Program-made: the position numbers and the translations under genes
Notes under the pieces: model-generated
What the model saw: only the letters and a program-made list of their open reading frames with translations
Told to the model about the DNA's origin: nothing
The model's database searches: none
Source: Thermoplasmatota archaeon
Lineage (GTDB): Archaea; Thermoplasmatota; Thermoplasmata; Thermoplasmatales; Thermoplasmataceae
Direction of reading: 5' to 3'
NCBI GenBank assembly: GCA_023379825.1
Contig: JAMCPQ010000051.1
Coordinates: 1 to 45,105, forward strand
DNA: 45,105 nucleotides
Shown here: piece by piece, positions 11,658-13,617 of the stretch
Layout: every line of letters starts with the position of its first letter
How positions within the stretch are numbered: position 1 is the stretch's first letter

Positions 11658-11791
11658 GAGATTCACCAGAGACAAAAGAAATTCTTTCCCGTGTGAATTG
11701 CAGCTCCGGATATTAGGATTTGCCTGTGCCCATAAACTGGTTTTCCCAGGGATCTCTCCCTCAAAACTTTATATGACTCTACATTCATGTA

Positions 11792-12508
11792 ATGATGGAG
11801 ACAGAATTTCTATTCCTGAAAGATCAGTATGCAAGAGAAGCCGACAGCAAAGTTGTATGGCACGAGTTCACTGATCTTGTTCTTGACAGGTCAGTATTTT
11901 TCCCGACGGGGCATGGGCAGCCTAATGACCGTGGGAAGGTAATCATCGAGGGGAGAGAATACATAATTGTAGACACCTGGCTTGACGGGGAAAGCATACA
12001 CCTCATGTCACATGATACTTTTCCTGATGATGTCGACGGAAAAACCGCACATCAGGTCCTCGACTGGGATGTCAGATACATGCATATGAGATTCAGAACA
12101 GCACTCAAGATACTCATGGGTCTTTCATACAAACTATTCAAGGCGACTGTGAGGATTAACCAGACCTATGATGATTCTGCTTGGATGGATCTTGAACTGG
12201 ATAACATAACGGAAGATATGGTTTCAGAGCTCTTCAGCAAAGCTAACGAGATAGTGAAGGCGGATCTTGAGGTGAAGTTCTCAGAGATGCCCAGAGAGCA
12301 GTTCATGAAGGAGGAGGAGATGCTTGCCATATGCAAGTCCGTTGTGCCTGATTATGACAGTATAAGGATCATGCACCTGGATGGTATTCCTGATCAGATG
12401 GAGTTCGGCACAGATGTCCTGAGAACTTCCGAGGTTGGAAAAATTAACTTTAAAACAAATCTGGTCAAGGGAAAGATATCGAGGAGAATAAACATAACAC
12501 TTGAATAA
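11792..12508 (+). CDS. AlaX/alanyl-tRNA editing-domain-like protein lacking the zinc ligands
   Basis: The fold signature of AlaX proteins (trans-editing of misacylated tRNA-Ala) is visible: FFPTGHGQPNDRG at 37-49 matches the FFPxGGGQPxDxG motif, and the second-domain pattern GTDVLRTSEVGKI at 206-218 matches GTHVxxTGEIG. The metal ligands are replaced: HxxxH becomes Arg102-T-A-L-Lys106, and CxxxH becomes Glu204-F-G-T-Asp208. All four ligands are therefore changed to two basic and two acidic residues. The usual zinc-dependent deacylase is unlikely; RNA binding, another metal, or a salt-bridged site are possible. A TATA box (11768-11774) lies about 24 nt before ATG 11795, the second of two adjacent ATGs, suggesting a leaderless mRNA. 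Confidence 0.72.
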   Translation: MMETEFLFLKDQYAREADSKVVWHEFTDLVLDRSVFFPTGHGQPNDRGKVIIEGREYIIVDTWLDGESIHLMSHDTFPDDVDGKTAHQVLDWDVRYMHMRFRTALKILMGLSYKLFKATVRINQTYDDSAWMDLELDNITEDMVSELFSKANEIVKADLEVKFSEMPREQFMKEEEMLAICKSVVPDYDSIRIMHLDGIPDQMEFGTDVLRTSEVGKINFKTNLVKGKISRRINITLE

Positions 12509-12528: not shown

Positions 12529-13617
12529 ATGGACAGGGAAGCAGGAACATTTGAAAAAGTCCTCACAATCCTATCTATTATTCTCCTATTGGTAGTGCTT
12601 CTTACGGTTCTGTACGCAGTATTTGATTCTATCCAGAATCTTCCTGTGATAGAATCTCTGAATACTGCTGATTTCCTCTTCTTCAGCTTTAGCCTGTCTC
12701 CCTCCATTATTTACACTGTCCTTGCCCTGGTACTCATCATTCCTGTGGTGGCACTTCTTACTTTCTTCACTAAAGATAGAATAGGAACTGGTAAGGAGGG
12801 GAACACCTCTTGGGAGTTTGGGAAGTACTTTTCCATCTTTATACTCATTGAGCTTGTTTTTTCTGAAATAGAGAGCTATATTGACCCTTCAGTATCAACA
12901 TCTTTTCCGTACAATATTCCTATACCGGGAGAGAATTTTGTGCTTTCCTCGTCTCTTCTGTCTGAGACACTTGTCCAGATCACCATTCTTGGAATTGCTC
13001 TTTTTGTTTTCTACGGGTTTTCCAGACGCATGAGTGAAAAGAGCTTCTTTTCCATGCCAGTTCCAACAAGAACTGCAGCCCTTATATCTATGCTCTCAGC
13101 TATTCCAGTCGCGGTTTTATTCGGTGGAGGAATTGTCTCAACACTCTTCACATTTGTTATCTTCACATTTTTGAATATTGCGTTCATCCGAATTGGTTTT
13201 CTCAAGGGCTTTACTCTTAATTTTGCAGTTACCATGAGCAACGTGCTGATTTCACTTGCTGGTTCTGCATCAATATATTCAACAGCATTCACTTTCGTTC
13301 TTCTCTTCTTCGCCTTCCTGGGAATGGTGTCTATTTTCACCCTGGTCCCAAGAAGGACAGGCTTAACTGCACCAAATAGCGGCAGCACTTATCCAGGTTT
13401 TGAGGATATGCAGAATTTAAAGCCGGAAAAACCTGAACCTGTTACCAATTTCAGAGACCTGTTCATCCGGTCCACCTGCCCTTCATGTGGGAACTACACA
13501 TTTCAGGTTGAAGATAACATGGAACTGAAGTGTCTTAAATGTGGACACGAGATAGAAAGGGATGCTGTCGCTGAACCAAACATCACACTGAGAAGGTTAA
13601 GAGGATCTGGTTACTGA
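12529..13617 (+). CDS. Polytopic membrane protein with C-terminal zinc ribbon
   Basis: Family not recognised. The 362 residues contain about seven hydrophobic segments (about 11-32, 48-80, 99-112, 145-163, 183-220, 228-248 and 252-272), a flexible linker (about 275-310), then a zinc ribbon with Cys317/Cys320 and Cys335/Cys338. The ribbon would be cytoplasmic or nucleic-acid facing. The gene starts 20 nt after the AlaX-like gene on the same strand, so the two may be co-transcribed. Its 3' end overlaps the convergent MFS gene by 21 nt. Confidence 0.75.
   Translation: MDREAGTFEKVLTILSIILLLVVLLTVLYAVFDSIQNLPVIESLNTADFLFFSFSLSPSIIYTVLALVLIIPVVALLTFFTKDRIGTGKEGNTSWEFGKYFSIFILIELVFSEIESYIDPSVSTSFPYNIPIPGENFVLSSSLLSETLVQITILGIALFVFYGFSRRMSEKSFFSMPVPTRTAALISMLSAIPVAVLFGGGIVSTLFTFVIFTFLNIAFIRIGFLKGFTLNFAVTMSNVLISLAGSASIYSTAFTFVLLFFAFLGMVSIFTLVPRRTGLTAPNSGSTYPGFEDMQNLKPEKPEPVTNFRDLFIRSTCPSCGNYTFQVEDNMELKCLKCGHEIERDAVAEPNITLRRLRGSGY

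Follow-up and report, generated by a model that had tools for sequence, protein, structure and literature searches.

A tightly conserved AlaX-M paralogue without zinc ligands in an archaeal family, best read as a metal-free pseudo-deacylase

The window (the whole stretch of 45,105 nucleotides that was analysed, contig JAMCPQ010000051.1 of a Thermoplasmatota archaeon) encodes a paralogue of the alanyl-tRNA editing protein AlaX-M in which the residues at the zinc-ligand positions are replaced, followed by the gene of a zinc-ribbon membrane protein. The features of the locus are the following:

11767..11775, + strand: TATA-box-like element CTTTATATG, about 24 nt upstream of the second ATG, candidate for a leaderless-type start as read directly from the sequence
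11792..12508, + strand: AlaX-M-like paralogue lacking zinc ligands; 238 aa, or 237 aa from the probable start at 11795; NCBIfam AlaXM, 167.7 bits
11864..11875, + strand: codons 25-28, EFTD; in the family E, F and T 65/65 and D 64/65, variable in canonical AlaX-M
11906..11929, + strand: codons 39-46, former glycine-rich loop, GGGQPxD changed to TGHGQPND in the alignment
12095..12097, + strand: codon 102, Arg replacing zinc His 1; R in 65/65
12107..12109, + strand: codon 106, Lys replacing zinc His 2; F 22, K 18, R 15, Y 10 among the homologues
12152..12157, + strand: codons 121-122, former TGxQ motif; T to R in 65/65, G to I, V, M or L
12182..12184, + strand: codon 131; R to W in 65/65
12401..12406, + strand: codons 204-205; 204 is ligand position 3 (D 35, E 30, ancestral D), 205 is changed from G to F, M, Y or I, which would fill the pocket
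12413..12415, + strand: codon 208, Asp replacing zinc His 4; Q, N, Y, L, H or D among the homologues
12529..13617, + strand: conserved gene downstream, encoding a helical membrane protein whose C-terminus carries a CxxC...CxxC zinc ribbon; it starts 20 nt past the stop codon of the paralogue

The paralogue probably starts at the second ATG (11795), where Met is invariant in the homologues and upstream of which the TATA-like element is located; a transcript governed by the latter (11767-11775) would be leaderless. A scan for sigma-70 promoters and terminators around the gene, which does not cover archaeal promoters, revealed nothing above chance.

The window protein matched the NCBIfam AlaXM model (NF040865) over its full length with 167.7 bits at a cut-off of 300; the canonical AlaX-M paralogue of the same genome (276 bits) likewise stayed below this value, so the cut-off is a weak test. 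Archaeal AlaRS was matched as well; the Pfam family tRNA_SAD (PF07973) gave no match in the window protein at E≤1, and the protein is not among the three hits of the genome. The AF2 model (pLDDT 94.6, pTM 0.92) was aligned by Foldseek to 2e1b, 9iuw and 2zzf with TM-scores of 0.75-0.90, the best being 0.90 for the AlaRS editing domain 2zzf. By prediction, the paralogue retains the AlaRS/AlaX-M editing fold over its full length.

Homologues of the paralogue (43-94% identity) were present throughout one archaeal family (f1); named carriers are Thermoplasma sp., Ferroplasma acidarmanus, Acidiplasma aeolicum, Cuniculiplasma sp., Thermogymnomonas, E-plasma and the uncultured archaeon ASS_A1. All family genomes with a completeness of at least 90% encode it, and the genomes lacking it are incomplete ones and those of genus g19, in which the flanking genes are present with no paralogue beside them. 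In a class-wide search, full-length paralogues scored 360-404 bits, fragments 202-318 bits and all other sequences at most 186 bits. As the homologue searches, including the class-wide one, found no paralogue-like score outside the family, a horizontal origin was rejected. A tree of 121 sequences unites the 65 paralogues in a single clade (support 100/100, stem length 1.13), support for its exact sister group being low (57/35); common ancestry with canonical AlaX-M is supported by the tree and by approximately 28-37% identity to the canonical paralogues of the order. With dN/dS values of approximately 0.02-0.15, as low as in canonical AlaX-M, the gene is under strong purifying selection. The original prediction of a conserved, metal-free derivative rather than a product of random decay is supported by these 65 monophyletic homologues and their low dN/dS, and a pseudogene or sequencing error was rejected on the same values and on the occurrence in complete genomes. 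In the draft genome of Thermogymnomonas acidicola (L168:3453-4177), the paralogue is broken by several frame changes and the neighbour gene is likewise split, into three pieces, pointing to sequencing errors in this draft. Among the papers covered by the literature search, none described an AlaX without zinc or the paralogue of the Thermoplasma/Ferroplasma family.

At the former zinc site, the window protein contains RxxxK and ExxxD instead of HxxxH and [C/D]xxxH: Arg-102, Lys-106, Glu-204 and Asp-208 occupy the positions held by H/H/D/H in the canonical AlaX-M of this genome and by H/H/C/H in AlaX-M and AlaRS from other sources, which confirms the assignment of these four residues to the ligand positions. 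The canonical AlaX-M proteins of the order carry H/H/D/H in all 39 aligned sequences, and those outside the order mostly H/H/C/H. The Asp replacing the Cys ligand in the order (DGGTH; loci L074-L113, 39/39) is seen in its AlaX-M; the AlaRS of the window genome keeps CGGTH. Residue 204 had been regarded as a substitution of Cys by Glu; it rather represents a change from Asp to Glu, since the canonical paralogue of the order already has Asp. HxxxH is absent from all 65 homologues in the alignment, and no alternative set of conserved His/Cys residues that might have served as the true ligands was found among them, His-70 and His-98 being the only conserved ones.

Two salt-bridged charge pairs in place of the metal, as originally proposed, are not a property of the family. 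Position 102 is Arg in 65/65 and position 204 is always acidic (D 35, E 30); position 106 varies between K, R, F and Y, and position 208 between N, D, Q, H, L and Y, His at 208 (6/65) being the sole His at any ligand position. The combination RKED of the window protein occurs in only three homologues, the frequent patterns being RKEN (15), RYDQ (10), RFDY (10), RREL (9) and RFDQ (9), and the other rare ones RRDH, RREN and RFDH (3 each). According to parsimony, Asp-204 and His-208 are the ancestral states, and Asp-208 arose from Asn twice in small lineages, in G000/G103 and separately in G094 (the genus of the window being one of the two); judged from these alignments, the acidic pair of the window protein is a local state and no designed substitute for zinc. 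The expected covariation of basic and acidic residues was found in part: the invariant Arg-102 is always accompanied by an acid at 204, and position 106 changed from aromatic to basic on the same two branches on which Asp-204 became Glu (E-plasma with RRDH being the exception); residues 106 and 208 otherwise vary. Coupling between 106 and 204 may exist, with two events being too few for firmness, and a single Arg-102–acid-204 ion pair survives as a possible option.

The surrounding motifs, originally described as intact, are only partly so (GGGQP changed to GHGQP and [C/D]GGTH to EFGTD). In the alignment, Gly-41, Gly-122 and Gly-205, invariant in the canonical AlaX-M of the order, are replaced by bulky residues: position 41 (Gly in 39/39 canonical sequences) is His in the window protein and D, Y, E, F, L or another residue in its homologues. 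Asp-200 is substituted by Pro in 63/65. Summed over 16 motif positions, the residue volume is increased by approximately 535 cubic angstroms, mostly at Gly-41, Gly-122, Gly-205 and Thr-121. On the strand of the old active site, Asp-133 is kept and Gln-124 is present in 55/65, otherwise substituted by Glu. In the editing site of E. coli AlaRS, the bulky substitutions T567F/S587W/C666F abolish deacylation (PMC5409826); given this precedent and the pocket filling read from the alignment positions, hydrolysis of Ser/Gly-tRNA(Ala) by the paralogue is unlikely.

Newly fixed sites number 19 in the N-terminal domain versus 14 in the core and lost sites 6 versus 18 (Fisher p 0.017; the test assumes independent sites, and the boundary at residue 92 is our own choice). 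tRNA specificity has been documented for AlaX-M and AlaX-L and is missing in AlaX-S (PMC11295145). The newly fixed residues of the N-terminal domain of the paralogue include EFTD, PND, Asp-65-Gly-66, Ser-73 and Asp-75. AlaX-S has no N-terminal domain; as this unselective form lacks the domain and the M and L forms are selective, the shift of constraint towards it would fit RNA recognition.

The membrane zinc-ribbon gene, the most consistent neighbour of the paralogue, is located near it in 51/52 loci, usually within approximately 110 nt; in some genera the distance is 0.4-0.9 kb, and in Thermoplasma the two genes are convergent. The neighbour in the window (12529-13617) is a helical, fast-evolving membrane protein; its conserved CxxC...CxxC ribbon shows weak similarity to TFIIB-type and eS27 ribbons, its membrane part matched no Pfam family, its AF2 model consists of many helices and a low-confidence tail, and a Foldseek search with it gave no match at E≤0.001. 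In a genome of genus g19 (G115; L225:3512-6350), the genes of rpL10e, the membrane zinc-ribbon protein and an MFS protein lie together without the paralogue, suggesting its insertion into, or loss from, this neighbourhood. Since the neighbour can stand there with no adjoining paralogue, the pairing is no more than suggestive; an operon logic of both genes was retained as weak evidence, given this solitary occurrence and the convergent arrangement in Thermoplasma.

The window genome further encodes an AlaRS with intact editing motifs (HHSATH...CGGTH) and a canonical AlaX-M (H/H/D/H). Canonical AlaX-M was found in 30 of the 34 family genomes checked; it was found neither in any of the three genomes of the E-plasma genus (G070, G071, G073; L130, L134), which keep the zinc-less RRDH paralogue, nor in one further genome among the 34, which also keeps the paralogue.

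The best reading of these data is that the paralogue is an ancient AlaX-M pseudo-deacylase, metal-free. That it binds no metal and no longer acts as a deacylase of the alanine system is very probable on the alignments; its present role as an RNA binder or scaffold is more tentative and somewhat short of an even chance, and the combination of both parts is judged to be evenly balanced. According to this proposal, the pocket would be held shut by the Arg-102–Asp/Glu-204 ion pair together with bulky side chains, so that the site would bind no metal and would not hydrolyse Ser/Gly-tRNA(Ala). The present work of the protein might then be non-catalytic binding via its N-terminal domain, as the weaker part of the proposal, and the most likely role would be that of a scaffold, shield or delivery factor that binds the tRNA acceptor end or another RNA. 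The RNA-binding role originally envisaged is plausible. With a net charge of approximately −8 and a pI of approximately 5.1, the protein is acidic, which is atypical for an RNA binder; canonical AlaX-M of these archaea has an identical median net charge, and RNA binding cannot be told from other roles by charge. The retention of Gln/Glu-124 and Asp-133 would be compatible with some possible ligand-related function in the pocket. By its catalytic features, the protein would be filed as a non-catalytic paralogue of AlaX-M descent and not as a member in function.

A hydrolase that works without metal through new catalytic residues (Arg-102, the acid at 204, Arg-121, Gln-124) and cleaves another aminoacyl-tRNA or an ester, in the manner of the zinc-free ThrRS editing domains, would account for the strong conservation of Arg-102, Arg-121, Trp-131, Tyr-126 and Asp-133 around the old site, and related ThrRS editing domains, which are known to be zinc-independent, were indeed found by the fold search. 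However, the His/Cys residues kept by ThrRS are absent in the paralogue, and its former Gly positions in the pocket are occupied by Phe, Met, Tyr or Ile differing among genera, unlike a substrate pocket; the new catalytic role originally envisaged is disfavored by this filling, and a hydrolase is quite improbable. The two new invariant arginines at the old active site could instead bind an anion (carboxylate or phosphate), the signal being passed to a partner, perhaps the membrane neighbour that accompanies the paralogue in nearly all loci. Such a ligand sensor is considered unlikely: Arg-102 may merely pair with the acid at 204, and the neighbour is convergent in Thermoplasma, 0.7-0.9 kb away in several genera and without an adjoining paralogue in G115.

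Tuning of editing as a non-catalytic partner of canonical AlaX-M or AlaRS would agree with the presence of both in most genomes, but the E-plasma genomes keep the paralogue with no canonical AlaX-M detected (3/3). AlaX-M is consequently not required and is disfavored as an obligatory partner; AlaRS would be possible, and the partner role in general appears to have little probability. A gene copy in decay or only recently dead, for which the loss of catalytic residues is the sole point in favor, is refuted by the dN/dS values and by the presence of the paralogue in every sufficiently complete (at least 90%) family genome; we assign it practically no probability.

Stand-alone editing domains are normally taken as deacylases; a whole archaeal family, in contrast, carries an editing paralogue without metal and probably without a pocket, yet as tightly conserved as an active enzyme; it would, if so, be a clean case of such a domain recruited otherwise. 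Annotation pipelines are likely to label these genes as alanyl-tRNA editing proteins, a name that would be wrong here. The pseudo-deacylase reading is readily testable, as the protein is small and lacks membrane segments, and as it has cultured carriers in Ferroplasma acidarmanus and Acidiplasma.

Compared with known systems, the paralogue resembles AlaX-M (NF040865; 2e1b, 9iuw) in length, domain order and predicted fold, all 32 members of A1 matching the model, and keeps the AlaX-M residues Met-99, Asp-133, Gly-206, Glu-214, KG and Arg-232; it differs by the missing zinc ligands, the broken glycine-rich loop, the filled pocket and the new invariant Arg-102, Arg-121 and Trp-131. The archaeal AlaRS editing domain (2zzf, 3wqy) is the best structural match (TM-score 0.90), from which the paralogue is distinguished by its stand-alone form and the absence of HxxxH/CxxxH. 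The superfamily fold is common with the ThrRS N2 editing domain (1tje), a weak fold match of far lower structural similarity. ThrRS N2 edits without zinc and has catalytic His/Cys at the ligand positions, whereas the paralogue has no His/Cys at the four positions except His-208 in 6/65. Weak Foldseek matches (TM-score approximately 0.3-0.4) were also obtained to mitoribosome chains, which we take to be mL39. mL39/MRPL39 of the mitochondrial ribosome is a tRNA-synthetase-derived protein of the same fold that was reused as a ribosomal part (PMC4099522). It derives from ThrRS and the paralogue from AlaX; the data do not place the paralogue in the ribosome. In a further reading, which is rather unlikely, the lineage-wide pseudo-enzyme would have been permanently built into translation as a factor bound to tRNA ends or to the ribosome, perhaps membrane-associated together with the zinc-ribbon neighbour, and would be an independent archaeal counterpart of mL39. 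As an editing-type domain gone structural, mL39 is the nearest analogy.
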